Positions 3 through 24,137 of a stretch of DNA of 29,121 bases are shown here, in pieces; the stretch's first letter is position 1; every line of letters starts with the position of its first letter. This DNA is from a virus. The stretch covers positions 1 through 29,121 of IMG/VR virus record IMGVR_UViG_3300046009_013966; one strand, 5' to 3'. The notes below the pieces were generated by a model. That model did no database searches. It was not told where the DNA came from and saw only the letters and a list, made by a program, of their open reading frames with translations. The translations under genes and the position numbers were made by a program.

Positions 3-1436
3 GAGAAATATTGGATAGCCGATCTCGAAGAACGATCGGGACAATACTATACCAAAACCGGAAGGTTAAAGCAAAACCCAACAAATCCTAGTGGGCTGTC
101 TAAGAAATATTCGGGCGAACTATCTCATGCTACGCAGTTAGCTCGTCGCCAACATTTCAAGAAACATGGTGCCAAGGCCAGCTCTGATGCCAGCGCCTAT
201 GTACCTGCGCCTGGCGACACTGAAGCCACCACTAAACTCAGCAAATACACCAAACGCTATCACGAACGATATCGTGTTCGTGAACAACATCTGCCCTGGA
301 TACTCATGTCAGCCGAACAGCGCATGATCATCAAGGAATCCGAACAGCAATTAAGTTTCAATGGCTATACAACGGTCAACCTAGATCTTTGTCCAGGTGC
401 AGTGATCACCCTCAAACAGGTCATAGACAATCCTGCTCTGAATCCCGAATTTGTCATCAAAGCCATACAGGCTACGGATGCCATGCTGGGTGTAGAACGC
501 GAAGCCATGAATCAGGGTTTTGCCACCACAGAACTCATACATGATTTTACCATGTACATGGGCATAGCTCATGATACCCTGCACTTGTTGGGTTTGACCG
601 ATGCCGACTTTGCCACCAAATACGGCAAGAATTGGTTTGAAACGCACATGCGTAAAATGTCAGAGCTGGGCATGCACAACGATGGCATCATGATGCAGCA
701 ATATGGAACGCATCTGCCCGTAGAGCAAGGAGAGGTTGAAGAAAGCATGAAACCCATAAAAAGCACTCACGCCGTGCAGAGCATTCTTTTGCACCGAACC
801 GATGGCAAAACTATCAAACGCCATAACTTAGTCAAGAAACTAGACTTCAAAGACGATACGGAAAACAGCAAAATGGATACAGAAATCAAAGAAGCTGCTG
901 ATGCCGCTCTTAGCAAAAAAGCATCTGAGAGTGGTGTTAGCCTGGGTACCTTGCGTCAGGTCTACAAGCGTGGCGTAGCGGCCTGGCGCACTGGCCACAG
1001 ACCCGGAACTACTCCGCAGCAATGGGGCATGGCCAGAGTCAACAGCTACATCACCAAAGGCAAAACCTATCACACTGCAGACAAAGACCTGCGTGAAGCC
1101 GAAGAAGCCCAGAATTTGCCTGACAATCAAAACATTAAAAAAATGGGTCCCTACAAGCACATGGGCGATCCACAGCGCGATGAACGCGATATTAATTTTA
1201 ACGATGGCAAAGACGTTTTTCATGGCATAGACAAAGCCGTGACCGACGAAGTTGGTTTCGATGGCAAGCCCGTAGGATTTGTTAGCTTCAAGAGTTTCAT
1301 GCACGAGCCTGAAAACATCAAAACAACTGCTCAACACGATGCTGCACGAGCCAGCATTCATGCAGCTCAGGTTACTGATTTCGCCCAGCACGGTCCAGCC
1401 TATAGAGCCCAAGTCAAAGCACGTAAAATGGAGTAG
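3..1436 (+). CDS. 5'-truncated phage head-region protein with DUF5824-like motif
   Basis: The reading frame is open from the first bases of the window, so the real start lies upstream and 477 codons are visible; the first ATG in the frame is at 306 but is not needed as a start. The N-terminal visible part is basic and rich in Ser/Lys/Tyr (SKYTKRYHERY around nt 240-275). Around nt 930-1075 there is a strongly recognisable stretch (SGVSLGTLRQVYKRG, AAWRTGHRPGTTPQQW, ARVNSYITKGK) that I associate with the DUF5824 family of phage and plasmid proteins, function unknown. It is followed by a charged region and a C-terminal tail rich in His/Ala. It lies upstream of the Dps-like gene with only two bases between stop and ATG. 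Its position at the head of the capsid-associated block suggests a virion or morphogenesis role, but this is inference. No catalytic motif is seen. Confidence 0.75.
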   Translation, partial: EKYWIADLEERSGQYYTKTGRLKQNPTNPSGLSKKYSGELSHATQLARRQHFKKHGAKASSDASAYVPAPGDTEATTKLSKYTKRYHERYRVREQHLPWILMSAEQRMIIKESEQQLSFNGYTTVNLDLCPGAVITLKQVIDNPALNPEFVIKAIQATDAMLGVEREAMNQGFATTELIHDFTMYMGIAHDTLHLLGLTDADFATKYGKNWFETHMRKMSELGMHNDGIMMQQYGTHLPVEQGEVEESMKPIKSTHAVQSILLHRTDGKTIKRHNLVKKLDFKDDTENSKMDTEIKEAADAALSKKASESGVSLGTLRQVYKRGVAAWRTGHRPGTTPQQWGMARVNSYITKGKTYHTADKDLREAEEAQNLPDNQNIKKMGPYKHMGDPQRDERDINFNDGKDVFHGIDKAVTDEVGFDGKPVGFVSFKSFMHEPENIKTTAQHDAARASIHAAQVTDFAQHGPAYRAQVKARKME

Positions 1437-1438
1437 TA

Positions 1439-1873
1439 ATGGAAGAATTAATTCAAGCATTAAGACAAACGTTGGCCAATACCTTTGGCATGTATTTCCA
1501 GGCTCATAGCGGTCACTGGAATGTCGAAGGACCGGACTTTGCTGAGTATCATGATTTCTTGGGCGAGCTCTATGAAGAGTTGCACGGAGCCGTAGATCCC
1601 ATAGCCGAGTACATCAGAATACTAGATGCCTATGCTCCAGGCGACATCAGCGAAATGATGATGTCCACCAGCATTAGTGCCATGGGCGTTAAAAGCAACC
1701 CCAGGGACATTGTTAGCAGCCTAGTGGACAGCAACAACATCTGTCTTTTGACTCTCATGACAGCCTTTAAAGCCAGTGAAGCTGCTGGAGAAGTTGGTTT
1801 GTCAGACTTTTTAACACAACGCATCAATGCACACCAGAAACATGCCTGGCAGATGCGTAGCATGCTAAAATGA
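1439..1873 (+). CDS. Dps/ferritin-like DNA-binding or iron-storage protein
   Basis: This 144-aa protein has the length and helical pattern of the Dps subfamily of ferritin-like proteins, which oxidise Fe(II) with peroxide at a site between subunits and can protect DNA. The signature region HWNVEGPDF at residues 26-34 is typical. Aligning by spacing with E. coli Dps (H51, H63, D67, D78, E82), the likely ligands are H26, H38, D53 and E57. The residue matching D67 is G42, so one ferroxidase ligand appears to be missing. There is no long basic N-terminal tail as in E. coli Dps. A GGAG ribosome site lies just before the ATG within the end of the preceding gene, and the stop overlaps the next ATG (ATGA). 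In this setting it could be a packaged or early-infection DNA or oxidative-stress protector; that role is inferred. Confidence 0.85.
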   Translation: MEELIQALRQTLANTFGMYFQAHSGHWNVEGPDFAEYHDFLGELYEELHGAVDPIAEYIRILDAYAPGDISEMMMSTSISAMGVKSNPRDIVSSLVDSNNICLLTLMTAFKASEAAGEVGLSDFLTQRINAHQKHAWQMRSMLK

Positions 1874-2358
1874 AAAGCTTCGTAGAAATCATTTGGGAAT
1901 CAAAATCCCAAGATGACGTTATTTCGGACACCGATCTCGAACAAATGGCCGAGGCTTTAACCTGGGACGACATTGCGGATCTTTACGATGCCGATGAACT
2001 CATCGAAGTCGACGAAGCCGAAGAAGACATCAATGAAGCTCTAAGTGCTCAGGCTCGTCTGCGTAAGCGCATGACCTTTGCCAGACACAAGGCCAAGCGG
2101 GTGCAATTGCGTGGCATCAAGCTTCGCAGAGCCAGTGACTTTGCCACTCTCAAGAAACGTGCCACCAATGCTGCACGCAGATCCATAACCAAAAGATTGC
2201 TCAGAGGTCGTGACAAAGCGTCTCTGAGTCCAGCGGAAAAAGATAGAATAGAGCAACAAGTACGTCGCATGAAGAACATACAGAACATTCTGGCTCAGCG
2301 AATGATTCCCAAGATTAAAAAGATTGAGCAGGGTCGTCTGTACAAGAAACGCAAATGA
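1870..2358 (+). CDS. Basic hypothetical protein with capsid-targeting-like leader
   Basis: 162 aa, starting MKSFVEIIWESKS. The leader resembles the short N-terminal capsid-targeting sequence of T4 internal head proteins, and I8-W9-E10 followed by Ser fits the [L/I]-x-E cleavage pattern of T4-type prohead proteases. An acidic segment (residues about 15-55, rich in Asp/Glu) is followed by a strongly basic, Arg/Lys-rich helical half (residues about 60-162), with SLSPAEKDRIEQQV around residues 116-130. The basic half looks like a family of conserved hypotheticals in marine T4-like phages. The bipartite acidic/basic composition would suit a DNA-associated internal or scaffold-core protein, but no function is established. 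ATGA overlaps join it to both neighbours, so it is probably translationally coupled. Confidence 0.75.
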   Translation: MKSFVEIIWESKSQDDVISDTDLEQMAEALTWDDIADLYDADELIEVDEAEEDINEALSAQARLRKRMTFARHKAKRVQLRGIKLRRASDFATLKKRATNAARRSITKRLLRGRDKASLSPAEKDRIEQQVRRMKNIQNILAQRMIPKIKKIEQGRLYKKRK

Positions 2359-2777
2359 AAAAATTCTTTGAACTAAGAAACGAACTCTATGAATCTGCTT
2401 GCCCTGTGGCTACGCAGCATCTGGACACCAACGTTAAAAATCGCCAGCATGCCATTGATGAATATCTGTACGGCCCAGCCAACCCCAACGAGCCCGGTGA
2501 TCATTGGAATAAAATAGCCAAGGTCTGGAGCATCAGTGTAGAAAATGCCAAGACCATGACCTGTGGCAACTGTGCGGCATTTGATATTTCGGACAAGATG
2601 CGCAAGTGCATAGAAGTGGGCATGCAAGGTAAAGAAAAATCGGCCGATGCTCTGGCCACCGCAGAAAAAGCAGACCTGGGTTACTGCAACATCTTACATT
2701 TCAAATGTGCTGGTACCAGAACCTGTAAGCTATGGTTGACCGACGGTCCCATAGATAATAAAGACCGAACCATGTAA
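2355..2777 (+). CDS. Cys-rich conserved phage protein, putative metal binding
   Basis: 140 aa, beginning MKKFFELRNELYES, another short leader of the MK-x-F-x-E-L-R type with L11-Y12-E13 followed by Ser. The body carries a CxxC at C70/C73 (MTCGNCAAFD), C85, and a second cluster C111, C118 and C124 (GYCNILHFKCAGTRTC). This Cys pattern is conserved, to my recollection, in hypothetical proteins of marine T4-like phages and suggests a bound zinc or iron-sulfur centre. No enzyme motif is visible. The gene overlaps its upstream neighbour by ATGA and the downstream ATG by one base (TAATG). Function unknown; a structural or capsid-internal metal protein is one possibility. Confidence 0.7.
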   Translation: MKKFFELRNELYESACPVATQHLDTNVKNRQHAIDEYLYGPANPNEPGDHWNKIAKVWSISVENAKTMTCGNCAAFDISDKMRKCIEVGMQGKEKSADALATAEKADLGYCNILHFKCAGTRTCKLWLTDGPIDNKDRTM

Positions 2778-3385
2778 TGTTCAGCATTGCCAGAATCGAT
2801 TTTATAACCGATCCTGTAATTAACGTAGGCATAGATGATGTTTTTTACAAGGATCCGCAGGCCATGGACTTCTTTGATAAAGATGGCTATGAGCTCACTA
2901 GACTCGAACAGACCTATTATGCCTGCCAGGGACTAGAAGTAAGTCGTTATACTGCTGGTCATCCCGGAGTATTTCAGCCCTGGATTGCCGTTGATCATGA
3001 ATATTTGAGCATAGATCATAGCTGTGCCATGTATCGCTGCAATTTTGAGGGTATGGCCCTGGCACAGATTCAACGACAGACCAAGAAGTATCCCCGCGTA
3101 GGTTGGTTATTGACCTGCAAGAAGAAATGGGGGCTGGATTTAAACATAGATTATTGTGATGGCAACATAGCACTAGAAGTTATACATCTAGAATGGGATA
3201 GTCCTAGTCTAGAGTACATAGAACAAGAAAGAGTCAAAGCCGAAGAATTAGTTAAGAATACAGATTGGGTGGATGCTGCCAAGCGAGTTTGGTCACTACG
3301 AGATGAATGGCAAAACCTCAAAGGCTGGTATGCGCAGGCTCATTGGAAAGCAACCTATTTTGGATTAGAAAGGCCCTGGTATTAA
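2777..3385 (+). CDS. Conserved hypothetical phage protein
   Basis: 202 aa, MFSIARIDFITDPVINVG. It is rich in aromatic residues, especially Tyr and Trp, without signal peptide or membrane segment. The segment YPRVGWLLTCKKKWGLDLNI (residues about 105-124) followed by YCDGN and EVIHLEWD resembles hypothetical proteins I recall in cyanomyovirus-like genomes. Unlike its neighbours it does not begin with the MK-x-F leader, so it may not be targeted to the capsid. It starts on the A of the previous stop codon (TAATG) and ends directly against the next ATG, so it is part of the same tightly coupled operon. No function can be assigned. Confidence 0.7.
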   Translation: MFSIARIDFITDPVINVGIDDVFYKDPQAMDFFDKDGYELTRLEQTYYACQGLEVSRYTAGHPGVFQPWIAVDHEYLSIDHSCAMYRCNFEGMALAQIQRQTKKYPRVGWLLTCKKKWGLDLNIDYCDGNIALEVIHLEWDSPSLEYIEQERVKAEELVKNTDWVDAAKRVWSLRDEWQNLKGWYAQAHWKATYFGLERPWY

Positions 3386-5545
3386 ATGAAGACATTCAAA
3401 GATCTAAGAACTGTTCAAGAACAAGCATCACCCATGATCAAACCACCTACGAATGAGTTTGGTAAAAAAGAAGATGCCTTTGCCCATGCCAAGCAACATG
3501 GTGGTAAGGTGTTTAAAAAGACATTTACCCATCCTACTTCTGGTATGAAGAATGTTAGTTATGTTGTTAGAGAAGATGCCGAACAGATTGATGAGCTAAA
3601 AAGAACAACACTTGCCAATTATGTTAGCAAGGCAGCAGGTAGCTATGGTCGTGACAAACAGAACATAGGCAGAGAAAGCCCAGATGGTACCGTGGCCAAG
3701 GCTCGACCAGAACTCAAACGCGCAGTAAAGAATCGTCTAACTGGTATCAATCGTGCAGCCGAAAGACTGGCCAAAGAAGAAACCGAAATCGACGAAGCAT
3801 CCAAGAAACCTAATGCCACTACTCGTCATCTAAGACAATATCCAGTTAGTGATAAGGACGTGGCTAAACCTGTTAAGCAGTCAGAGTATCAACATCATGT
3901 CGTATCAAAGTTAGATGGTAATGTTTTGGCCTCTTATAAATCACGGGAAGATGCGCATAAAAATGCTCATGGTAATCCAGTTGTTTCCGGTTCTCTAGAA
4001 ACCATCGGTGATCGTAAATATGTTAGAGAGCAAAGTGAGTCTAAACCCGTAACATATTACTCATTAGTACATAAAGCAACTAATAAAGTACTAAGCACAC
4101 ATAAAGATTTAGAATCTGCTAAAGACGAACATAGGGGCATGGATCAGGGTGAACGAGCACATTACAGAATTGCCACGACAACAAAAGCGCCTAAGTCTTT
4201 TAGTATGAAAGAAGATGCCGAAGGTGTGGCGGAAGACATTTCCTCTACTAAAAAGAAAATATCAAAATACGAAGAACTTGCGTTGGCTGCGAATCGTGCT
4301 GGTGATGATGCAAAAAGCAAACAATATCAACAAAAGATTCAAGTACTTAAACAAAAAATGTCTCAAGGTGTGGCAGAAGAAAATATTCTTGAAGGTGCAT
4401 ACGAAAAATCTGAAGAAAATAAACGTTCTGCTGATGCTGCTAAGAAGCAAGGTGATATGTTCGCCCATCACCTACACATGGCTGACCATCACGATAATTT
4501 AGCTCAATGGCATGCTGAGAGAGGTCGTCATAGCGTAGCAGATAGTCATGCAGCCAAGGCTGAAGAACATCAAGAAAAGGCTATGGAACATAAAAAGCAA
4601 GGTGTGGCGGAAGCTGCATTCAAAGATCCTAGTCCTATGATGAAAGACAGCATCAAGCAAGATAGAATTCGCAGTCTAAAAAATCTTATTGCTGTTGCCA
4701 AAGTAAAAGGCGTCCATCATAAAGTCAAAGAATATGAATTAGAATTGAAAAAATTGAAGGAAACGACGGAAGTGACAGAAGCCGGTGCATTTTCCTATGG
4801 AGCTAAACCACCACGTAAAGGTTCGGTTGCCTACAATGCTCTCATGAAACGCAAAGAGCAGGATAAAAATCGTGTCAAAGAAATCGAAGCCATTGGTACT
4901 AAAAATCATCATGTAGGTGTAGCCAAAGTCACAAAAGCTGTGGCGGAAGGCTATACCGGTCGTGAAACCAAAGACGGAACCTGGCGTGTGTTCAAGGATG
5001 GGCAAGCGGTAGCAGTGGCGGGACCATTCAAGAGCAGAGATGAAGCACATGCCTGGATTAAAAAACACAAGCAAGGTGTCTCGGAAGCCAAAGATACTGA
5101 GATGTACAAGTACATAGATCAGTCTGGTGGTCATCAAATAAAAGGAAAATCAGGAACCTATGTAGGTTATACGCATTCTGCCACCAAAGGCAAGGGTGCC
5201 AACATTCTAAAGCATAACACGACAAAAAAGTATTATGCAGCAGGTGGTTCATCCACAGCATTTACTGCAAAAACTACTCTACACGATACACCCCAAGCAG
5301 CAGCCAGGGCATATCACAAAGGTAACCTAGCCGAACAAGACGAAAAAGAAGCACAAGAGTATGATTACGAAGGCGACATGGCTAGATCCGATCTGCGCAG
5401 CATTATATTCAATGCACAAGAGGTGCATGACATGCTGGAGCCCAACACCAATTTACCTGAGTGGGTACAGGCCAAGATTACCAAGGCCGAGGACTACATG
5501 AGTTCCGTAAGATCCTATATGAAGGCCGAAAATGAAGACCTTTAA
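3386..5545 (+). CDS. 719-aa modular protein with repeated protease-like junctions, capsid-internal candidate
   Basis: The protein begins MKTFKDLRTVQE, a capsid-targeting-like leader, and is built of about ten short Lys-rich modules. Module borders are marked by recurring sites: IDE-L (68-70), IDE-A (135-137), VAE-D (281-283), VAE-E (329-331), VAE-A (407-409), VTE-A (463-465), VAE-G (519-521), VSE-A (565-567) and LAE-Q (648-650). Four of the five VAE/VSE sites are preceded by Gly, three of them by Gln-Gly. These fit the [LIV]-x-E|A/G/S-like rule of T4-type prohead proteases. Two modules are internal paralogues (around residues 167-195 and 222-252, both with a K-x-L/V-S/A pattern). The last module (about 660-719, ARSDLRSIIFNAQEVHDMLE) resembles a small domain I recall widely in marine phages. 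The protein may be a polyprotein of injected or internal head peptides; this is inference. It overlaps the next gene by 14 bases. Confidence 0.75.
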   Translation: MKTFKDLRTVQEQASPMIKPPTNEFGKKEDAFAHAKQHGGKVFKKTFTHPTSGMKNVSYVVREDAEQIDELKRTTLANYVSKAAGSYGRDKQNIGRESPDGTVAKARPELKRAVKNRLTGINRAAERLAKEETEIDEASKKPNATTRHLRQYPVSDKDVAKPVKQSEYQHHVVSKLDGNVLASYKSREDAHKNAHGNPVVSGSLETIGDRKYVREQSESKPVTYYSLVHKATNKVLSTHKDLESAKDEHRGMDQGERAHYRIATTTKAPKSFSMKEDAEGVAEDISSTKKKISKYEELALAANRAGDDAKSKQYQQKIQVLKQKMSQGVAEENILEGAYEKSEENKRSADAAKKQGDMFAHHLHMADHHDNLAQWHAERGRHSVADSHAAKAEEHQEKAMEHKKQGVAEAAFKDPSPMMKDSIKQDRIRSLKNLIAVAKVKGVHHKVKEYELELKKLKETTEVTEAGAFSYGAKPPRKGSVAYNALMKRKEQDKNRVKEIEAIGTKNHHVGVAKVTKAVAEGYTGRETKDGTWRVFKDGQAVAVAGPFKSRDEAHAWIKKHKQGVSEAKDTEMYKYIDQSGGHQIKGKSGTYVGYTHSATKGKGANILKHNTTKKYYAAGGSSTAFTAKTTLHDTPQAAARAYHKGNLAEQDEKEAQEYDYEGDMARSDLRSIIFNAQEVHDMLEPNTNLPEWVQAKITKAEDYMSSVRSYMKAENEDL

Positions 5546-5837
5546 AGAACTCAGGGAAGCCACCTACAAGGGCAAGACCGTGCCCTTGAACAAGCCCATG
5601 GCTGGTGATATTAAAAAACGCAAGGTCTATGTTGATCCAGATGGTGACGGCAAAGCCAAGAAAGTAGAATTTGGTGATACTACGGGGCTGACCATCAAGA
5701 CATCGGACCCCAATCGTCGCAGAAATTTCAGAGCGCGTCATAATTGTGACCAGAAGAAGGATAAAACAACAGCAGGATATTGGTCCTGTAAAGCCTGGAG
5801 TGCACCTACAGTCAAACAGGGACTGGGCACTAAATGA
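5532..5837 (+). CDS. Small basic conserved phage protein (DUF5872-like), leader with LRE|A site
   Basis: 101 aa, beginning MKTFKELREATYKGKTV. The leader has L7-R8-E9 followed by Ala, an excellent fit to the T4 prohead-protease rule. The body (YVDPDGDGKAKKVEFGD, then RRRNFRARHNCDQKK and AGYWSCKAW) matches a domain I know from many marine phage proteins, named DUF5872 as far as I recall; the family name should be checked. The conserved Cys/Trp/Arg core (RARHNCD, YWSCKAW) suggests a small folded basic domain. The ATG lies inside the end of the 719-aa gene, and ATGA joins it to the next gene. A capsid-internal or packaged DNA-binding role is plausible but unproven. Confidence 0.8.
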   Translation: MKTFKELREATYKGKTVPLNKPMAGDIKKRKVYVDPDGDGKAKKVEFGDTTGLTIKTSDPNRRRNFRARHNCDQKKDKTTAGYWSCKAWSAPTVKQGLGTK

Positions 5838-6574
5838 AAACTCTAGCAGAGCTACGGGAAAAATGGTCCAACAAATACAAACGCAGCATAGATTGCAACG
5901 ACCCTAAGGGCTTCAGTCAACGTGCGCATTGTCAGGGTAAAAACAAAACCAATGAAGGTGTTAGTACTTCATATAATAAGCCCGATGAGCAAACTGGTGT
6001 AATGTCGTACCATGATCTAGAAGCTCATATCGGTAAACCAAAGGCTCTTTTGATTGCTAAGCACGAACAATTTCAAAAACATATGTTTCCGCAAATGAGT
6101 TTAGGGGCTCAGGTAGGTTTTAAGTTTGAAAGACGTCATGGTTTTGAACATGTTTATGCTGTTCATGGTCCCAATAAGTACGTTGACAAAGAAAAGCCTG
6201 GATACAGAACCATGCTTAGATTTCATTTAAGTGGTAGTGGTAAAAAGGTTACTCAGGTTGATCGTTCTGTTAATCACAACAATGAACGACATCATGAAGG
6301 TAGTCTAGTTTGGGATCATCGTGAGACCTGGGAACATCCGGTAAACAAACGTGAGGATAAACAAATAGCTAAGAGAATGGCTGCATCTAAAGCTACTAAT
6401 GAAAATTTTCAAGACGGACGTAATCCACAGGATCGGGGTGATAGTGCTAGACACGGCATACCCAAGGGAGCTACCATAGCTCTCCTAAAGAAAATTCGTA
6501 GCAGTCCCAATTCTAGTCCACGCAAGAAACAGCTTGCGCATTGGCAGATAAATATGCGAAAGGGTCGCACCTAA
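5834..6574 (+). CDS. Modular basic protein with capsid-targeting-like leader
   Basis: 246 aa, starting MKTLAELREKWSNKYK. Three parts can be seen. Residues about 17-37 (RSIDCNDPKGFSQRAHCQGK) form a small Cys-containing motif I recognise from marine phage proteins. The middle (about 45-190) is a His/Tyr-rich domain unlike its flanks. The C-terminus (about 195-246; GDSARHGIPKGATI, KKQLAHWQINMRKGR) is another widespread phage module. The DNA of the middle part is more AT-rich and uses codons such as GTT/AGT/CAT more than the flanks, suggesting insertion of a separate domain. ATGA overlap with the upstream gene. Function unknown; the leader groups it with the internal-protein candidates. Its 3' end contains a late-promoter motif for the following fibre gene. 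Confidence 0.75.
   Translation: MKTLAELREKWSNKYKRSIDCNDPKGFSQRAHCQGKNKTNEGVSTSYNKPDEQTGVMSYHDLEAHIGKPKALLIAKHEQFQKHMFPQMSLGAQVGFKFERRHGFEHVYAVHGPNKYVDKEKPGYRTMLRFHLSGSGKKVTQVDRSVNHNNERHHEGSLVWDHRETWEHPVNKREDKQIAKRMAASKATNENFQDGRNPQDRGDSARHGIPKGATIALLKKIRSSPNSSPRKKQLAHWQINMRKGRT
6547..6554 (+). promoter_or_regulatory. T4-type late promoter (GATAAATA)
   Basis: GATAAATA matches the NATAAATA/TATAAATA -10 element read by T4-like late sigma factors (gp55 type), which need no -35 box. It lies in the end of the upstream gene, 46 bases before the ATG at 6600, and would start a transcript for the fibre genes and the subtilase. Assignment is from the motif and position only. Confidence 0.5.
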
Positions 6575-7130: not shown

Positions 7131-7660
7131 TGCCTGATAATTTAACCATTGATGCCTCATCAGCATCCGGAGCCGATACTACCTATCTGGTAAAAGTCGA
7201 TCCTGGATTGACCAGCAATCAGATCAGTATTGCCAATCTTCTGAACAGCACGAGTGGTAATGTCGGATTTACTACTAGCAATATCCATACTTTGGGTAAT
7301 ACAAATCGTAAATTTCGCGGCATTTATCTGTCTCAGGAAATCAACGCCAACTCTCTGGTGATTAATGAGACTGCTGGAACCATCAACTTCAAGTCCAATG
7401 TATCAGCCAATGGTTTTGAAATTGTTAACAGCACAGCGGAACCTGCCCTAAAAAGCTTGTTTGATTTGCGCATATATGCCAATGCCAACAGCAGAGGTGG
7501 CGCGGTTGTGGTTACCAATAGCCCTCTGAGGCTTGCAAGTTTTACTACGACCGATCGCGACAATCACATTATTTCACCAGCCAACGGTGATGTAATTTTA
7601 AACATAACCACCAATAAAATACAGGTGTTTGCTGATAAAGTTTGGACGGATTTACACTAA
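7130..7660 (+). CDS. Tail-fibre/adhesin-like structural protein, copy 2
   Basis: 176 aa, a paralogue of the gene before it with the same length and layout: an N-terminal YLVKVDPG segment, a central RKFRGIYLS module, and a C-terminus with GGAVVVTNSPLR, GDVILNITTNKIQ and VWTDLH. The 3' ends and following start codons of both copies are identical over 19 bases (7114-7132 and 7644-7662), which supports tandem duplication. Divergence is greatest in the N-terminal third, as expected for paralogues that attach to different partners or targets. Its last base is the A of the next gene's ATG. Probable virion surface protein. Confidence 0.75.
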   Translation: MPDNLTIDASSASGADTTYLVKVDPGLTSNQISIANLLNSTSGNVGFTTSNIHTLGNTNRKFRGIYLSQEINANSLVINETAGTINFKSNVSANGFEIVNSTAEPALKSLFDLRIYANANSRGGAVVVTNSPLRLASFTTTDRDNHIISPANGDVILNITTNKIQVFADKVWTDLH

Positions 7661-9633
7661 TGAGCACAGCCAACGTAATCTATAATTTCCAAGGACACGA
7701 AGATCTTTTCAGATCAGATCTCTTTGCCCAGATTAATAATCTACCCCCTAATCTGTCTTCTGGTCACTTGTATAATCCTACGTCAGCAGATTTGGTGGAT
7801 GGCAAACGTGAATATATTGTTATTGCGCACGATGGATGCCTAGAATCTCTTGAACAGGATCTAGAACTTGATACTACAGCCAACAACGAAGTTGATGGCA
7901 ACATTGTACCTGATAGGCCTGTAGAAGTTGCTAATCGCAGAATCACATCAGATATTCAAACACATTACTGGCTAACCGATCAAGAAGCTGCAAATCTTCA
8001 GTCTGATCCTAGAGTCCGATTTATTCATCCCACCATTGAACATGATACTGGTCTAGCTCTAACCCAGTTTGGTTTGGACTATCAGCCGTATTATTCATTT
8101 CAAAGCAGATACAATGTAATTCGCCAATCGATAAACTTTCCTGGCGGAGCTCGTAATTGGGCCCTGCACCTATGCGGTAATGGCAATGTTGATTATGGTT
8201 CTGGTCTTACTAGTCCGTCTGATGATCGCACCTATCGTTACATATTGGATGGCGATGGTGTGGATGTGGTCATATCTGACGGTGGTCTTGATCCAGCGCA
8301 CATGGAATGGTTGGATCCAACAGGTAGGGTTAGTAGATTCCAACGAGTTAACTGGTATACCCTTGCTGGCATCAGTGGAGCACAGGCTACAGCCCTACAG
8401 GCCAACATCAACAACGGTACATTTTACCAATCCGATGATGGTGGCCATGGCATGCACGTTGCCAGCATAACTGCAGGCAGAGTGTTTGGTTGGGCCAAAC
8501 GGGCCAACATCTACAACATGAAATTTTTTGGCTTTGGCGCCATTGGTGTTGATGAAGGCCTAGATCTCATAAGACTCTGGCACAAAAATAAACCCATAGA
8601 TCCCAAAACCGGACAAAAAAGACCCACCATAGTCAATGGAAGTTGGGGGGTATCTAGATTTGTTGCCATACCTAAGCAAAAGGGGTTTGAACATCCAAGT
8701 TTTTTCCCGGGTTCCGGTAATAAAGTTTACAGTGGTGTTGCCGCAGCCAACATTACCTACAGAGGTACTAATATTGGTACAGTCAATGTATTCGATGATG
8801 TTGCCAATACTGGCCTTAACGGAACCACAAGATTAGATAATTTTGATGCGGGCTCAAATTCTTCGGGAGTTCCTATAACAATTAGATTTTTTGGCTTCAA
8901 TGGACAAGTTGGCTCTTGGGATACTTCAGCTGAATCAATGATCAAAGAGGGCGTAATCTTTGTACACGCCGCAGGTAACGATCATCATAAACTAGATGTT
9001 CCAGGTGGTCCTGACTATAACAATCAAATTTCAGTTTGGTATACCCCAATATCTTTTCTTCCCCCAATTTTTCAACAATCTTATTATTATCATAGACCAA
9101 GTAGCCCTGACCTTGGTAACGTCATACACGTGGGCAGTGTTAACAGCATATGTTCCCAAAAACCCAATATTTTAGAAAGCTCACCATTCAGTGCCTGGGG
9201 ACCAGGAGTAACTGTCTGGGCGCCTGGCTCGGCAATTGTAGCTGCTTATTCTGCCAAGTACGGTAATCTGCCGGCTAATGATGATTTTGTCTATAAAAAT
9301 CCCACGACCGGAGCATCAGTCGCTGGCAACGCAATGGTAGCCTTGTCTGGTACCAGCATGGCTGCTCCACAGGTAACTGGGTTTTTGGCCCTATATCTGC
9401 AAGCCAACCCCGCAGCCAACCAGTTGGCCTGTTTGCAATGGTTACAAAATGTAGGCAGCAACAGCAACTTACTGTATACAGGCAATGTTGATGATTATGC
9501 CAATGCCTACATAGTTGGTAATTCTGGTAAATTCATGTATACACCTTGGAAAACAGGCGTTGCTACGCAGTCTACGCAAGACAACATAGAGGGTAGTTTG
9601 GTTCTAGAGAATTTAACCATCAACACCATCTGA
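7660..9633 (+). CDS. Subtilisin-like (S8) serine protease, probable virion-associated
   Basis: 657 aa from the ATG that overlaps the preceding stop (TAATG); an ATG 18 bases earlier lies inside the fibre gene and is less likely. The catalytic set of S8 peptidases is complete: Asp207 (VVISDGGLD), His263 (GGHGMHVASITAG), oxyanion Asn440 (HAAGND) and Ser566 (LSGTSMAAP). The Asp-His and His-Asn spacings are larger than in subtilisin BPN', so there are insertions. No signal peptide or membrane segment is seen. Residues 1-200 may act as an attachment domain or propeptide. Placement between fibre genes under a late promoter suggests a virion enzyme that cuts host surface proteins or processes phage proteins, but this is inference. 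It is very unlikely to be host DNA, since it is fused into the operon by overlapping codons. Confidence 0.92.
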   Translation: MSTANVIYNFQGHEDLFRSDLFAQINNLPPNLSSGHLYNPTSADLVDGKREYIVIAHDGCLESLEQDLELDTTANNEVDGNIVPDRPVEVANRRITSDIQTHYWLTDQEAANLQSDPRVRFIHPTIEHDTGLALTQFGLDYQPYYSFQSRYNVIRQSINFPGGARNWALHLCGNGNVDYGSGLTSPSDDRTYRYILDGDGVDVVISDGGLDPAHMEWLDPTGRVSRFQRVNWYTLAGISGAQATALQANINNGTFYQSDDGGHGMHVASITAGRVFGWAKRANIYNMKFFGFGAIGVDEGLDLIRLWHKNKPIDPKTGQKRPTIVNGSWGVSRFVAIPKQKGFEHPSFFPGSGNKVYSGVAAANITYRGTNIGTVNVFDDVANTGLNGTTRLDNFDAGSNSSGVPITIRFFGFNGQVGSWDTSAESMIKEGVIFVHAAGNDHHKLDVPGGPDYNNQISVWYTPISFLPPIFQQSYYYHRPSSPDLGNVIHVGSVNSICSQKPNILESSPFSAWGPGVTVWAPGSAIVAAYSAKYGNLPANDDFVYKNPTTGASVAGNAMVALSGTSMAAPQVTGFLALYLQANPAANQLACLQWLQNVGSNSNLLYTGNVDDYANAYIVGNSGKFMYTPWKTGVATQSTQDNIEGSLVLENLTINTI

Positions 9634-9689: not shown

Positions 9690-10733
9690 ATGTCCAATTT
9701 TGTTGCAAAAACCAGAGCCCTCATGGAGCAGATGTCTGAGGCTCAGGACAAGCCTGTAGACAAAGCGCATTTTTGTGCTACGCACGTCGAACATCTGCTT
9801 TTTGGTCCAGGGACCTGCATTAGCGAAGCTCATGCCGAGCCCGATGACAATGGACATGTCGCCTGGTACACTGTTCAGTTTACCGATGGTGTGCGTAAAA
9901 TTGACACCAAGGATCTAAAGGTTACCGAAGGCAAGAGCCACATGCACAAGAAGCCCATGAAGGAAGCAGAGGTTGCCGAAGCCAACATTAAACATCCCAA
10001 TCAGCAGAAGCTCGATGTACATGAGCCCGAAAAGGATGAGCTAACAGCCAAGGACTTCGAAATGTTCCGCAAGGGCAAGAAAGTCGAAAAGACTGTTGAC
10101 ACAGAAAAAGAAGAACAGAAGATGACCAACGAAGCTCAGACAAGTGCTGCTGCTAGATACACCAAAGCTAAAATGAGTCATCAGGCATCAACCACCATGA
10201 AACACATAGCCAATCCGACAGCAGGCGAAACTAAAGCTGCCAAGGACATCAAGCCTGGCATAGCTGGTTATCGTGACCGTATTGCTATGCTTAAAAGTGC
10301 CCAAGCAAGAGGTGCTTTGAAAGCAGAAGAAGTCGAAACGGAAAATTTCGAATTGATTGATATTACTACAACCTATGAAATGACTGAACATGTTGCTATA
10401 CCTAAAAATCCATCCTTTGAGAATTATTTGGATGCTGTAAGTTTTCTAATTAACAATGACAGCGAAGAAATTCAGAAAGAAATAATTTCATTGGCTCAAG
10501 AAGCATTTGCCAACAAAGAAATTGATGTCCTTATCAAAGCCGAATTGCAGGCCATGAACGAAGCAGGCGCCATCAAGATGCCAACAGCAACAGGCATGCG
10601 CGTCATGGGCACACGTTACGGAAATAGTGCTGAGGCTGAACGTAATAGTACCAAGAAGTTCATAGACACAATGAAAGGCCCTAGCTCTGCGGCTATGGCT
10701 AAATTGGAAAAACCAGCCAAAGCCAAGAAATAA
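9690..10733 (+). CDS. Modular head-type structural or scaffold-like protein
   Basis: 347 aa, Lys/Glu/Ala-rich and mostly helical. It contains a segment (ANIKHPNQQKLDVHEPEKDE, residues 98-117, then LTAKDFEMFRKGKK) that I recognise from head-associated proteins of marine T4-like phages. The C-terminal part (GMRVMGTRYGNSAEAERN, MKGPSSAAM) is also shared with such proteins. Several [MIV]-x-E|A sites occur (MSE-A at 15-17, ISE-A at 44-46, VAE-A at 95-97), as in the 719-aa protein. A late promoter and a strong ribosome site precede it. A capsid or prohead-core role is likely. It could equally be another multi-module internal protein; the evidence does not separate these. Confidence 0.7.
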   Translation: MSNFVAKTRALMEQMSEAQDKPVDKAHFCATHVEHLLFGPGTCISEAHAEPDDNGHVAWYTVQFTDGVRKIDTKDLKVTEGKSHMHKKPMKEAEVAEANIKHPNQQKLDVHEPEKDELTAKDFEMFRKGKKVEKTVDTEKEEQKMTNEAQTSAAARYTKAKMSHQASTTMKHIANPTAGETKAAKDIKPGIAGYRDRIAMLKSAQARGALKAEEVETENFELIDITTTYEMTEHVAIPKNPSFENYLDAVSFLINNDSEEIQKEIISLAQEAFANKEIDVLIKAELQAMNEAGAIKMPTATGMRVMGTRYGNSAEAERNSTKKFIDTMKGPSSAAMAKLEKPAKAKK

Positions 10734-11650: not shown

Positions 11651-12358
11651 ATGGCCGATAGTAAGGTAAGTCAGCTAGCACCGGCTACACAGGCCGCAGC
11701 AGCTGACCTCATGTATTTGGTACAATCCAATACCAGTAAACGACTTACCGTTGGTAATTTGTTTAGCAATGTTGCTGTGGACCTAGTGCCAACTGTGAAC
11801 AATGCCAACAACATAGGTTCGGCTTCGTTCCGTTGGCGCCAGGTTTTTGCAGCCAATCTCAACATATCTACATCGGCCAGCATAGCCAATGCCAATCTTA
11901 CAGGATTTGCCACTACCATTAGCAGCAATGTATTGCCTGCTGCTACTGGTGTATGGAGTTTGGGCAACACTGATTATAGATTTAGATCCATCTGGTTAAC
12001 GGGCAGCAGTTCCATCTACCTGGGCAGCAATACAGCCATTAGGTCTGATGATGAAGGTAATGTAACCATCAGCATGGGACAGAATACCCTGTTTGCCAAT
12101 GCCGATGGTTCAGTGAAGGTGGGTACATTCAGCATCAAACCTACCAATACAGCCAACGGTAGTCCAGTGCGTCCGTTGGTGTTTACCAATGCCGAACTAG
12201 ACATTTCCAATTTGCCCAACATAGCCAACGTTGACTTTGGTCGAGGGCCCAGCACCGTAGGAATGGGTCCGCTGGTAGGTGACCTAGCCTTCAATTTGAC
12301 CACCAGTAAGCTCATGATCTATCTAGGAAACGTACTTGGTTTTGCCAATGTAGCATAA
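11651..12358 (+). CDS. Tail-fibre/adhesin-like structural protein, third paralogue
   Basis: 235 aa with the same plan as the genes at 6600 and 7130: N-terminal VSQLAPATQAAAADLMYLVQ with SKRLTVGNL, then two RWRQVFAAN / RFRSIWLTG modules instead of one, and a C-terminus ending GDLAFNLTTSKLMIYL. The extra module explains its greater length. An AGGAG ribosome site precedes the ATG. Separation from the tandem pair by the subtilase and two head-type genes suggests older duplication or shuffling. A beta-rich virion surface protein is likely; its partner is unknown. The stop codon overlaps the next ATG by one base. Confidence 0.72.
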   Translation: MADSKVSQLAPATQAAAADLMYLVQSNTSKRLTVGNLFSNVAVDLVPTVNNANNIGSASFRWRQVFAANLNISTSASIANANLTGFATTISSNVLPAATGVWSLGNTDYRFRSIWLTGSSSIYLGSNTAIRSDDEGNVTISMGQNTLFANADGSVKVGTFSIKPTNTANGSPVRPLVFTNAELDISNLPNIANVDFGRGPSTVGMGPLVGDLAFNLTTSKLMIYLGNVLGFANVA

Positions 12359-12747
12359 TGAATGTCATAGAATTGAATGATGAAACCTTTATCATGTATG
12401 CCATTAAAAATTATGATAACCCAAACTGTACAGGACTCACAGAATTTCATGATGACGTACAGAGATTTAAATATCTAAAAAGATTGTTTCGCAAGGCCAA
12501 TCGCGGTGAGCTCAAAGAAAGACTCATACTAAATCATCTGGTTGTCCTTTATAATTTGTTTGGTGCAGAAGCTGCGACACGCATGCTGTTCTACAAGATA
12601 GACAACATTGATTGGCCGCAGCTTAAAACCTTCTTGGTGTTTTTGAACTTCATGCCTGAAAATTTAGTTTTGGCTGATGGGTCAAACATGCCCAGTGCAG
12701 ACATAGCTCTTGTACCTGCACTCATAGATGTGCTAAGGAAAATTTAA
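12358..12747 (+). CDS. Conserved T4-like phage hypothetical protein A
   Basis: 129 aa, a compact helical protein. Residues about 35-85 (RFKYLKRLFRKANRGELKER, LILNHLVVLYNLFGAEAATR, MLFYKID) match a hypothetical protein conserved, to my recollection, across marine T4-like phages, where it also sits directly before a protein like the next one here. The C-terminal half is rich in hydrophobic residues but has no convincing membrane segment. TAATG overlaps link it to both neighbours. Conservation of the pair suggests a joint morphogenesis role, perhaps in virion assembly; no function is known to me. Confidence 0.75.
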   Translation: MNVIELNDETFIMYAIKNYDNPNCTGLTEFHDDVQRFKYLKRLFRKANRGELKERLILNHLVVLYNLFGAEAATRMLFYKIDNIDWPQLKTFLVFLNFMPENLVLADGSNMPSADIALVPALIDVLRKI

Positions 12748-20603: not shown

Positions 20604-23600
20604 ATGGATCTAAAAAAATTCATAGCCTTTAATTCCGAAGCCAAGTCCGAGGCGCATGATCCGGCAGTGCTCGAGAGCTATGCCCGTAGCCTGGAAGTTG
20701 TAAACGAGAACCTGGGCAAGATGCTGCTCATGAGTGCTGAGATTGAAAAGATCCGTGAAGATCTCAAGCATGTAGTCAAAGAAGGCGAATTCAAAGGCGC
20801 CATGGTGGCCCTGCTCAGTCAGATAGAACCCTTGCGAGAAGAAATTGCTCGCCAGGTCAATACCGAAGTGCAGGCCATCCGAGAAAGTTTTCGTACTCTA
20901 ACCACCAAGACCACCAGTCTACAGAAGCTGGTCGACGAAGCCGTTGACCAGCAAAACCTCCGCATCATCAATCACTTTGAGACCCAGGAACAGAAGCTTC
21001 TGGATCTGCGCCAGGCCGTAGAAGACCGTGCCGATCTTGGTCCCATGAAGACCAAACTGGAGCACGTAGCCGAGGATGTCGACTATCTCAAAAAGCTAGA
21101 CATCTATGACAATCTCAATGCCACTCAAGAAGCCGCAGTGGCTCTGGGTCAGCACATAGACGACATCGATGGCAATGTGGTCAAGTTGGCCAAGGAAATA
21201 CTAGAGTTCAAACAGGACATGCTGGACACCAGCCTGGTGCTGGAACGTTCAACCAATGCTCGCTACCAGGAAGCCCTGGAAGCTCTGGATGAGAATTTGC
21301 GCAATGTTACCACCCTGCAAGAAAATCTGCAGGACATAGAAAAGCGCTATGATGATCTAAACAAAGAGCTTACTGAAAGCAATCTAGCACATGATGTAGC
21401 CACCGCAGAGCTAGGCAAGGTGTTGGAGAACATTCAAAAGGCCAACCACGAACATGCTGAGGTACTGGACGAGCAGGTCACGCACATTGTAGGCAACATT
21501 ACCACACTCAAGCAAGAGCTAGATGCACTAGGTCAGGGACTGGATCAAGGCACCGAAGCTCATGCACAATCCGTAGCACGCATCCAAGAACTAACCACTC
21601 ACATACCTCGCCTGGATGCCAGAATCGATGAGCATGTTGGTTTGGTTGAACAGGAAATAAAGAGTCTGAGCAAGACTCTATTAGAACAAAATACTCGCAT
21701 ACAGGATTCACATCGTGACCTCAAGGCCCAGGTAGCCAAGGTCATTACCGATGGTAAAATGCTATTAGAACGAGAACAGTCTCGCATCGACGGTGATACC
21801 TTGTTCGAAGATCGCTATGACCGCATCATCAAACGCGTTGAAGAAGTCGAAGGCATGCTGGCTGACATTGATGCCAAGACCGAGCATAACGATGTAATCT
21901 ATGAACACGTACGCACCAGTTCGGATCGTTTGGATGCTCATGCTGATAGATTGATGCAGAAACTGCAAGAGACTGCCAACCAATCCATCAGTGATCTCAA
22001 GAAAAAGACCAAACTACTCAATGAAGCTGCCCCTACGGACATTGCAGGCATCAATGCCGGACTAGGCGTAGACACTCGCGACCTAGACAAAAAGTTTGTT
22101 ACCTTCCAGCAGCTCCGCGATCACTATAGACAGTTTGTGGATCGCGTACAACGTCAACTAGCCGAAAACATCGGCGGTGGCGGTGCTCAGTTCCTATGGG
22201 ACCTGGACGATGTAGACATTAATACGGTTCGATATCCTGGCAATGGAGAATTGCTGATCTGGAGCGGCGCTCTTAGGAAGTGGATATCAGGCAATGCCTT
22301 TACCATCAGTACAGTGCAAGGCAACTTGACTGTTCAGGAAAGCATCGAAGTGCTGGGCAATGCCAACATCTATGGGTTCCTGACTGTCGGTGGCAACATC
22401 ATCCTGGGTGATGCCACTACGGATAATTTTACCCTAGGTGCCGATGTAAACAGCGACATCCTACCAGATGTAAGCAGCACGTATAACCTTGGTTCAGTGT
22501 CACAGACCTGGGGCAACATACATGTTGACAGTGTTTATGTAGACAATCTTTGGGCTGCTGGCAACATCATGCCCGCAACCGATAATGTGCATGATCTGGG
22601 CAATGCAACGCATCGTTGGCGAGACCTTTATCTAAGCGGCAATAGTTTGTACATTGGTACTACGTCGTTTCACGATACCGGGGCACAACTAGAAATAAAA
22701 TACAATGGTAACGTAGCACTTAGATCAGACACCACAGGCAACATCAGAGCCAACTTATTCATAGGCGACCTAGATGGTAGGGTCAGCAACATAGCCAACC
22801 ACACCACAGATGCACTGCGAGAAGGTACAGCCAATCTCTATCATACTGTTGCTAGAGTCAGAACCAATATCTTTGCTGGTACGGGTGTACTGTACAACAA
22901 TGTCACAGGTCAGATAAGAATCAGCCAGAACGTCGACCCTGAGGTAGACGTACAGTTTAGCAATGTTACCATTACGGGCAATCTTAATGTCCTGGGTGCA
23001 GCAGCTAACTTCGAAGCAAATATCCTGAACGTTCAAGATCCCAGCATTATCTTTGGCGATGGCAATCCCAGCGATACCTATGATCTGGGCATACATGGAG
23101 AATATGTCAGCTCTGGTACACGTTACAGTGGATTGTTCAGAGATGCCAGTGCCGACGGACGCTGGAAACTCTATGCCAATCTTACCAACATGCCACAAAA
23201 CTTTGTGGACACATCCAGCATCAGTTTTAATTTTGCCAACCTAGAACTTAATCACGTTCATGGCAGAGTTACTTTAATAGATAACTTTACTACTACGGAT
23301 CTGGTCGAAGGGGCTAACCTATACTTTACCAATACCCGAGTATGGGCCAATGTAGGTACCAACATTGGTAACCTTAATAGCTGGGTCAGCTCCAACAGCA
23401 GCAACATTGGCAACATCAACAGCTGGCTGCGTACTACTAATAGCAATGTTGGCAACCTAAACGCCTGGACTAGTTCCAACAGCAGTAACATTGGCAACCT
23501 AAACGCCTGGACTAGTTCCAACAGCAGTAACATTGGCAACATCAACAGCTGGCTGCGTACAACCAACAGCAACATCGGCAACATCAACGGTTGGGTAAGT

Positions 23601-24137
23601 TCCAATAGCACCAACATCGGTAACCTTAATGCCTGGACCAGTAATAATAGTGCCAACATTGGCAACATAAACACTTGGCTAAGAACCATAACCACCACTG
23701 GCGTTGCCGAAGGTGCTAACCTGTACTACACTGATGATCGTGTATGGGGTAATGTTGGTACCAACATCGGTAACCTAAATGCCTGGGTCAGCTCTAATAG
23801 TACCAACATTGGCAACCTTAATAGTTGGGTTAGCTCCAACAGCAGCAACATCGGTAACCTAAATGCCTGGACTAGCTCTAATAGTACCAACATCGGTAAC
23901 CTAAACGCCTGGACTAGTTCCAACAGCAGTAACATCGGCAACCTAAATAGTTGGGTCACCAATGTATACACCAGCATACCCACCAGCGCCAACAACATCA
24001 ACAGCATAACCACCCTGGCAGCTCCAGCTACTACGGGCGATGCTGGTACAGCTGGCGAAGTAAGATTTGATGGTAATTATTTCTATGTGTGCATAGCCAG
24101 CAATACCTGGCGACGCGCTAACCTACATACCTGGTAA
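20604..24137 (+). CDS. Large tail-fibre-like protein with coiled-coil stalk and 14-residue repeats
   Basis: 1177 aa. Residues about 10-500 are nearly continuous coiled coil (Glu/Leu/Lys heptads). Residues 525-560 hold a linker (FLWDLDDVDINTVRYPGNGE) typical of marine phage structural proteins. Residues about 565-900 contain the same LG-x-R-W-R-D-L-Y-L-S module as the fibre genes at 6600, 7130 and 11651, plus EGTANLYHTVARVRTN and VEGANLYFTNTRVWAN elements. Residues 920-1123 carry thirteen copies of a 14-residue repeat (consensus NIGNLNAWTSSNSS) in blocks of eight and five. The C-terminal 40 residues (TTGDAGTAGEVRFDGNYFYV) are a usual fibre end. It is probably a trimeric host-contact fibre; the exact tail position is unknown. 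A late promoter lies just upstream. Confidence 0.82.
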   Translation: MDLKKFIAFNSEAKSEAHDPAVLESYARSLEVVNENLGKMLLMSAEIEKIREDLKHVVKEGEFKGAMVALLSQIEPLREEIARQVNTEVQAIRESFRTLTTKTTSLQKLVDEAVDQQNLRIINHFETQEQKLLDLRQAVEDRADLGPMKTKLEHVAEDVDYLKKLDIYDNLNATQEAAVALGQHIDDIDGNVVKLAKEILEFKQDMLDTSLVLERSTNARYQEALEALDENLRNVTTLQENLQDIEKRYDDLNKELTESNLAHDVATAELGKVLENIQKANHEHAEVLDEQVTHIVGNITTLKQELDALGQGLDQGTEAHAQSVARIQELTTHIPRLDARIDEHVGLVEQEIKSLSKTLLEQNTRIQDSHRDLKAQVAKVITDGKMLLEREQSRIDGDTLFEDRYDRIIKRVEEVEGMLADIDAKTEHNDVIYEHVRTSSDRLDAHADRLMQKLQETANQSISDLKKKTKLLNEAAPTDIAGINAGLGVDTRDLDKKFVTFQQLRDHYRQFVDRVQRQLAENIGGGGAQFLWDLDDVDINTVRYPGNGELLIWSGALRKWISGNAFTISTVQGNLTVQESIEVLGNANIYGFLTVGGNIILGDATTDNFTLGADVNSDILPDVSSTYNLGSVSQTWGNIHVDSVYVDNLWAAGNIMPATDNVHDLGNATHRWRDLYLSGNSLYIGTTSFHDTGAQLEIKYNGNVALRSDTTGNIRANLFIGDLDGRVSNIANHTTDALREGTANLYHTVARVRTNIFAGTGVLYNNVTGQIRISQNVDPEVDVQFSNVTITGNLNVLGAAANFEANILNVQDPSIIFGDGNPSDTYDLGIHGEYVSSGTRYSGLFRDASADGRWKLYANLTNMPQNFVDTSSISFNFANLELNHVHGRVTLIDNFTTTDLVEGANLYFTNTRVWANVGTNIGNLNSWVSSNSSNIGNINSWLRTTNSNVGNLNAWTSSNSSNIGNLNAWTSSNSSNIGNINSWLRTTNSNIGNINGWVSSNSTNIGNLNAWTSNNSANIGNINTWLRTITTTGVAEGANLYYTDDRVWGNVGTNIGNLNAWVSSNSTNIGNLNSWVSSNSSNIGNLNAWTSSNSTNIGNLNAWTSSNSSNIGNLNSWVTNVYTSIPTSANNINSITTLAAPATTGDAGTAGEVRFDGNYFYVCIASNTWRRANLHTW
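23361..23972 (+). repeat. 42-bp tandem repeats in the fibre gene
   Basis: Thirteen 42-base units encode the 14-residue fibre repeat: eight at 23361-23696 and five at 23763-23972. The two blocks are separated by a segment encoding VAEGANLYYTDDRVWGNV, which itself repeats the segment before block 1. Several units are identical over 30 bases or more, so unequal recombination could change the copy number. Confidence 0.9.

Follow-up and report, generated by a model that had tools for sequence, protein, structure and literature searches.

A mosaic protein family of T4-like aquatic phages with an x-E motif at module junctions, and the case for a head-core polyprotein

The window analysed here is a virus record of 29,121 bases, and the term refers to that whole stretch of DNA. 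It contains an open reading frame for a modular protein of 719 aa, which is surrounded by genes that begin with short leaders. The genes that matter for the analysis are given below. A stroke within a sequence marks the point after the Glu of a leader or border.

3..1436, plus strand: 3' part of an open frame that leaves the window; DUF5824 (1.4e-19); the NMNAT in syntenic position in S-SCSM1 carries a virion-protein annotation
1870..2358, plus strand: gene with leader MKSFVEIIWE/S and a basic C-terminal domain, homologues of which are C-terminal (36) or internal (3) modules
2355..2777, plus strand: gene with leader MKKFFELRNELYE/S
3386..5545, plus strand: putative modular polyprotein gene, 719 aa, net charge +22 (K+R-D-E)
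5532..5837, plus strand: DUF5754-like domain as a gene of its own with leader MKTFKELRE/A; Pfam match below cut-off, PHROG 7595 at 6.9e-15
5834..6574, plus strand: gene with leader MKTLAELRE

Leaders occur in 5 of the 36 window genes examined (up to 27523), all of them among the six genes of 1870-6574. The modular gene lies outside a head operon, among fibre-like, primase-like (a weak Toprim match) and nrdA (by tblastn) genes. The upstream part of frame 3..1436, as found in L003, reads by eye like an NMNAT/cytidylyltransferase domain. Between this NMNAT-type gene and the leader-bearing genes, 1439-1873 matches PHROG 3636 'DNA binding protein' (3.4e-28). A subtilase gene (7642-9633; Peptidase_S8, E 2.7e-23) is found amid fibre-like genes, and the fibre-like protein of 20604-24137 has many repeats of the type SNIGNLNAWTSSNS. 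A second polyprotein candidate of 347 aa (9690-10733) contains several [VILM]xE sites, and in four of these A comes next (MSE/A, ISE/A, VAE/A, MNE/A); it matches PHROG 22379 at 1.7e-5 and nothing in the phage collection at E 1e-5.

The 2160-nt modular gene has 0 differences from its counterparts in three other contigs (L001-L003), which speaks against an assembly artefact. Compared over 13,542 bases with L002 and L003 and over 8,217 with L001, the window shows 0 differences. Because these contigs represent one virus population, their identity is not independent evolutionary evidence.

The 719-aa protein has no Pfam family above the cut-off and no PHROG match. The best match in a PDB sequence search is a designed helical repeat (E 0.061), and Foldseek gave no match to viral models at E <=0.001. 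The AF2 model (44 sequences) has a mean pLDDT of 66.3 and a pTM of 0.36; confident helices in it run through E331 and E409. By eye, residues ~168-200 and ~224-256 resemble diverged copies (YQHHVVSKLDGNVLASY / YYSLVHKATNKVLSTH).

The first-pass annotation had described the frame as a chain of modules with x-E sites at E70, E137, E283, E331, E409, E465, E521, E567 and E650. This description is confirmed. All nine are [VIL]xE, four have the form G-V-[AS]-E, and after seven of them the next residue is A, G, D or E. The nine are a selection from the 17 [VIL]xE of the protein, of which, by judgement, E12, E63, E215 and E336 look like further borders and E449, E459, E499 and E692 do not. Shuffles of the same composition give 8.6 [VIL]xE (p 0.002) and 0.06 GV[AST]E compared with the 4 that are present, a number that 0 of 5000 shuffles reach. 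V is at P3 in 9 of the 13 border-like sites of the protein. The modules had also been called Lys-rich, which fits some of them and fails as a general description, since their net charges range from +7 to -10. The parts of the protein are as follows, with border counts over distinct homologues after L001-L003 were dropped.

3386..3421, plus strand: N-terminal leader MKTFKDLRTVQE/Q of the capsid-targeting-sequence type; the first five residues are those of T4 IpI
3422..3574, plus strand: module 13-63; follows module 568-650 directly at NLAE/A in L004, L005, L007, L008 and L009
3575..3796, plus strand: module 64-137; motif in homologues at the right border in 39/43, at the left in 22/44
3797..4030, plus strand: residues 138-215, composite; E215 unsupported as a border (0/3 homologues)
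4031..4234, plus strand: module 216-283; motif at the right border in 3/4, at the left in 0/4
4235..4378, plus strand: module 284-331; 97-98% nt identity to L018 and L021, stopping at GVAE codons
4379..4612, plus strand: module 332-409; net charge -5; the spacer ENILE336 precedes GAYE, cf. VVE/GAYE in L011
4613..4780, plus strand: residues 410-465; outside L001-L003 no distinct homologue passes the 60% coverage filter
4781..4948, plus strand: module 466-521; motif at the left border in 4/4, at the right in 2/4
4949..5086, plus strand: module 522-567; abuts module 284-331 in L018 and L021, where the window has 190 residues between them
5087..5335, plus strand: module 568-650; dN/dS 0.15-0.21 versus L004, L008 and L009
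5336..5542, plus strand: module 651-719, C-terminal, without x-E at its end; x-E in 71/76 internal homologues of its core 657-713

Mosaic proteins related to the 719-aa protein form a large family among T4-like phages of aquatic habitats. A single viral-contig scan gave at least 599 pattern matches, at least 554 of which encode relatives; the best 80 were kept and represent 79 loci. Three more scans brought the collection to 295 loci. From 271 of these (L080-L103 left out), 430 ORFs of >=100 aa were picked by homology to four query proteins and reduced to 218 representatives. Contigs from bacterial genomes gave 44 pattern matches, none of which is a relative. Relatives other than L001-L003 share one or a few modules with the window protein, often in a different order. 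A tblastn search of the phage collection with the protein (E up to 10) matched 37 records, among them three Escherichia phage matches (two in a baseplate wedge gene, one in an unannotated record). The modular protein of S-SM2 has matches in 502 phage records, and it matches residues 660-712 of the window protein weakly (E 0.04).

Homology breakpoints were taken from BLASTP alignment ends alone, without use of the motif, where both proteins continue for 20 aa; a common Glu may lengthen an alignment and bias such ends. At >=60% identity, [VILM]xE lies <=3 residues from 1004 of 1932 right ends (52.0%, versus 15.8% of random positions) and at 856 of 1958 left ends (-4 to +3; 43.7% versus 17.6%). 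Right ends at 45% identity have the motif in 1660 of 3944 cases (42.1% versus 15.6%). When each of the 20 residues is placed at Z in [VILM]xZ, only E is clearly enriched at the ends (6.3x), with the rare C at 1.7x and L at 1.1x. Enrichment by P3 residue is 7.6 for V, 6.5 for M, 6.4 for I, 5.2 for L, 5.2 for N, 4.3 for Q, 3.3 for A and 1.8x for S. The ends are likewise enriched, 2.6x, in Glu that follows a non-aliphatic P3, which makes P3 a weak element of the motif. The density of the motif over whole proteins, 1.48x in the family and 1.26x in 600 other ORFs that were chosen mechanically and may include non-genes, is weak evidence alone.

Homologues of the window modules show the same tendency. 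On the right side 157 of 188 borders carry the motif and on the left 112 of 196, compared with 8.7% inside modules and 11.0% at random positions. Homologues that keep the modules and lose the motifs, which the first-pass annotation had named as evidence against its reading, are mostly not what is seen. Some junctions are without x-E, namely E215 and the left border of 216-283. In L004, L008 and L010, a stretch that ends at ~163 fuses by eye to one that starts at ~220 at a shared KPV and without x-E. A chance motif is ruled out by the shuffles, the enrichment at homology breakpoints and the conservation of borders in homologues.

The x-E motif marks junctions and is present mainly where another module comes next. 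Core 657-713 is followed by x-E in the internal copies tabulated above versus 0 of 8 C-terminal ones (Fisher 3e-8; several copies are related, and incomplete ORFs were dropped). The last 12 aa contain the motif in 3 of the 207 representatives with a complete 3' end versus 20.7% of interior 12-mers; for other ORFs of >=250 aa the figures are 71 of 526 (13.5%) and 17.0%. In a comparison of 68 terminal modules with their closest internal homologues, for which the internal search window was slightly longer, 44 differ as expected, 0 differ in the opposite direction and 24 agree.

Several modules can be traced as cassettes. Module 284-331 has 97.2% and 97.9% nt identity to L018 and L021, and module 522-567 has 97.1% to L018. 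Identity drops to 29-60% in the 14-codon flanks of these modules, and the change sits at, or <=2 codons from, the GV[AS]E codons. The breakpoints, the near-identical cassettes and the altered module order in related phages show that modules have been shuffled with x-E at most junctions, as had been proposed from the regularity of the linkers. The modules are under purifying selection, with dN/dS of 0.08-0.21 in 7 computable of 8 comparisons. The GV[AS]E linker DNA of the window is near-uniform (GGT GTG GC[AG] GAA at 3 of 4). Family-wide, 703 border sites comprise 66 tripeptides and 297 distinct 9-mers, so the motif is conserved as protein and not as DNA. This variety rules out a DNA-level repeat as the sole cause across the family; for the GV[AS]E linker, in the lineage of the window, such a repeat may still be the cause.

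Leader-bearing genes and modules interchange. The DUF5754-like domain that follows the modular gene as a separate gene is a C-terminal polyprotein module in relatives. Of 11 such separate genes, 10 have a leader whose final x-E stands at the start of the domain (e.g. MLSFKEFIAE/ATYQGK), and x-E is found at the same point in 51 of 53 fused proteins and 14 of 15 intermediate cases. L147 and L043 are intermediates between leader and module. A leader pattern is matched by 32 of 203 family ORFs versus 60 of 1588 other ORFs. Internal leader-like stretches number 25, in 22 of 218 representatives (several related), versus 5.8 expected and a maximum of 12 in 20 shuffles.

Two further arrangements were observed outside the window. 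The basic C-terminal domain of ORF 1870-2358 has a match (35.8%, E 3e-6) in Stenotrophomonas phage DLP_6 (KU682439 54753-55067); it lies within a gene that carries the annotation cytitidyltransferase and is another case of a module in an NMNAT. A divergent T4-like contig (L332, 4360-6740) has five small genes between gp21 and the scaffold; four of the five products carry MIKLK..L(K/S/G/N)E near the start and form a tandem array of leader-bearing genes.

Leaders and internal borders differ at P3. Among 85 distinct leaders of the loci, P3 is L in.61 and I in.33 (94% L/I), whereas at internal borders (n=814) it equals the background, with V.33, L.31, I.20 and M.16. The leader site of the window protein, VQE, has V at P3 and not L/I. 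T4 gp21 is described as cutting after L/I-X-E (PMC9026906). The presumed gp23 site, taken by eye as the last x-E before the conserved core in 19 of 19 cases, is [LIM]xE in 18 and FTE in one; at P3, 16 of the 19 have L, single ones have M, I or F, and none has V. In gp22 sites P3 falls between that of leaders and that of internal borders. Internal borders are rich in V at P3, unlike the L/I of leaders, so cutting may be confined to some of the borders. Were it limited to L/I sites, the pieces would be fewer and larger.

The prohead protease was sought in two sets of 25 and 24 records, which share G007 and G018 and comprise 47 distinct ones. PF03420 (S77), the gp21-type protease, is found in 8 of 25 and 15 of 24, gp23 in 8 of 25 and 13 of 24, and the HK97-type protease PF04586 in 0 of 24. 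All 11 searched contigs of >=100 kb that carry relatives have the gp21-type protease. Neither protease nor gp23 lies within the 29-kb fragment or near relatives. In 8 contigs the order is T4-like: a portal-position gene, a small gene (6 of 8), the slot with one or two genes, a 98-143-aa gene, the protease, the scaffold and gp23. Of these, only protease and gp23 were identified by profile; the portal was assigned by size and position. The 98-143-aa gene before gp21 is missing from T4. In L297 a polyprotein of 751 aa fills the slot that separates the portal-position gene from gp21; in L301 the polyprotein in this place has 423 aa, and in L303 the slot has a single-module relative of 124 aa. Relatives therefore occupy the slot in 2 of 8 contigs, or 3 of 8 when the single-module one is counted, and the slot genes of the other five contigs are outside the membership count. 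The pooled site excess is 2.48 for gp22, 2.54 for gp21, 2.21 for the slot, 1.32 for gp23 and 1.01 for the portal-position gene.

Relatives are annotated as virion proteins in cyanophage S-SCSM1. The gene order of this phage resembles that of the window: NMNAT (91, with the leader MKSFLQFLKE/A), a 520-aa modular protein (92), 93, and further on 96, primase and nrdA. S-SCSM1_96 resembles window 12358-12747 by eye, and S-SCSM1_29 is a relative of the S-SM2 modular protein. The annotation as virion protein applies to genes 29, 91, 92 and 93 and does not extend to a place in the head. According to the original report, mass spectrometry identified 45 virion proteins of S-SCSM1, and its authors noted that the NMNAT may merely have stayed in suspension (PMC9602691). 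Sullivan et al. reported that S-SM1 virions contain gp21 as well as a putative cytidylyltransferase (PMC3037559). Detection in the virion alone does not show cutting.

For the relatives, a location in the head is supported by the leaders of the capsid-targeting type, the nearness to the protease gene and the syntenic virion-annotated relative. The status of the window protein as a head polyprotein is supported indirectly. The first-pass proposal of a prohead-protease-cut chain with swappable modules is thereby partly borne out. We consider it probable that the protein is a head-core polyprotein of a T4-like phage that is cut, at least in part, by the gp21-type prohead protease. The leader (MKTFK...VQE) would carry the chain into the prohead core, where the protease would cut after Glu at the [VIL]xE borders. 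Cutting would free a number of small internal proteins or peptides, which would remain with the DNA or be ejected together with it. The pieces may serve as core peptides associated with the DNA or, like T4 IpI, as injected factors. Modules that end in a short cutting site could fuse, separate as genes with leaders and be reordered, all without loss of function. The broadest form of this idea is rather doubtful: an arsenal in which the head protease makes about ten injected mini-proteins from one chain, and the cutting site doubles as a cassette adaptor across T4-like aquatic phages.

Alternatively, the chain may be packaged in the head and work whole after removal of the leader only, with x-E as a linker favoured by recombination or fusion. 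The V and M at P3 of borders, unlike leaders, would agree with this, as would the helices that span E331 and E409 in the model and the near-identical linker DNA in the window. We regard it as unlikely because E persists at P1 while the border DNA varies, because fused forms of the DUF5754-like domain almost always retain x-E at the domain start, and because a mere linker would presumably have no need of Glu. The excess of internal leader-like stretches and the intermediates L147 and L043 suggest another origin, in which x-E is the leftover end of leaders from fused internal-protein genes and has no present role. Neutral relics should decay, however, and x-E persists in these fused DUF5754-like forms though the leader is unrecognisable, and also in the internal copies of core 657-713; persistence without a role is very improbable.

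The protein could also be a modular one that acts in the cytoplasm or is associated with the tail, with some other cause behind its x-E borders. The setting of the gene among fibre-like, primase-like and nrdA genes and the lack of a recognised domain would fit such a protein. The cluster of leaders around the gene, the relatives just upstream of gp21 with one small gene between, and the syntenic virion-annotated genes of S-SCSM1 speak for the head instead, and a protein unrelated to it seems very improbable. The reading as a partly cut head-core polyprotein would have wider consequences. Many genes without a function share this layout, as the counts of viral-contig stretches and of S-SM2 matches given above indicate. 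If they are head polyproteins, much phage 'dark matter' would turn into packaged mini-proteins that can be listed and whose ends can be predicted, and the way in which phages swap injected factors would be revealed. In this way the virus head may be supplied with many small proteins from a single gene.

T4 IpI, IpII and IpIII are internal head proteins with a CTS leader that is removed by gp21, and IpI is an injected factor of the anti-restriction or host-takeover kind. Like the window protein, they have an MKT-type leader that ends in x-E; as read from AF158101, these are MKTFKEF... in IpI and MKTYQEFIAE/A in IpII and IpIII. Unlike them, the window protein has one leader followed by about ten modules, and V at P3. 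Sequence homology to the Ip proteins was not detected, as T4 is absent from the 37 tblastn records at E up to 10. The core proteins gp67, gp68 and gp22 are a second point of comparison: the relatives in L297 and L301 occupy a similar position between portal and protease, and gp22 has a similar site excess. T4 gp22 and gp67 are cut into several fragments, and the available sections of the same source do not describe T4 core proteins as shuffled chains of many modules (PMC9026906). Unlike the gp67/gp68 region, the contigs have the extra gene before gp21, and the window gene is outside the head operon.

The cyanophage 'structural/virion protein' cluster T4-GC119 (S-SM1, S-SM2, S-P4, S-SCSM1_29) has the same modular [VILM]xE layout. 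Its members are annotated only as hypothetical, structural or virion proteins, and processing is absent from those parts of the descriptions that are available. A description of such a polyprotein was not found in the open-licence literature, which is a weak absence. The inner-head (E) proteins of phiKZ and SPN3US receive multiple prohead-protease cuts after Glu, inside propeptides that are long and, in the excerpts at hand, not described as swappable modules (PMC5694885, PMC10052503). The SPN3US motif is given there as A-X-E, with S-x-E among the processed sites, whereas the window family favours V, M, I and L at P3. Polyvalent proteins of phages have recognisable enzyme domains and some have a peptidase of their own, whereas the window protein has none above the Pfam cut-off. 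They are likewise multi-module, mosaic and proposed to be packaged (PMC5512222).
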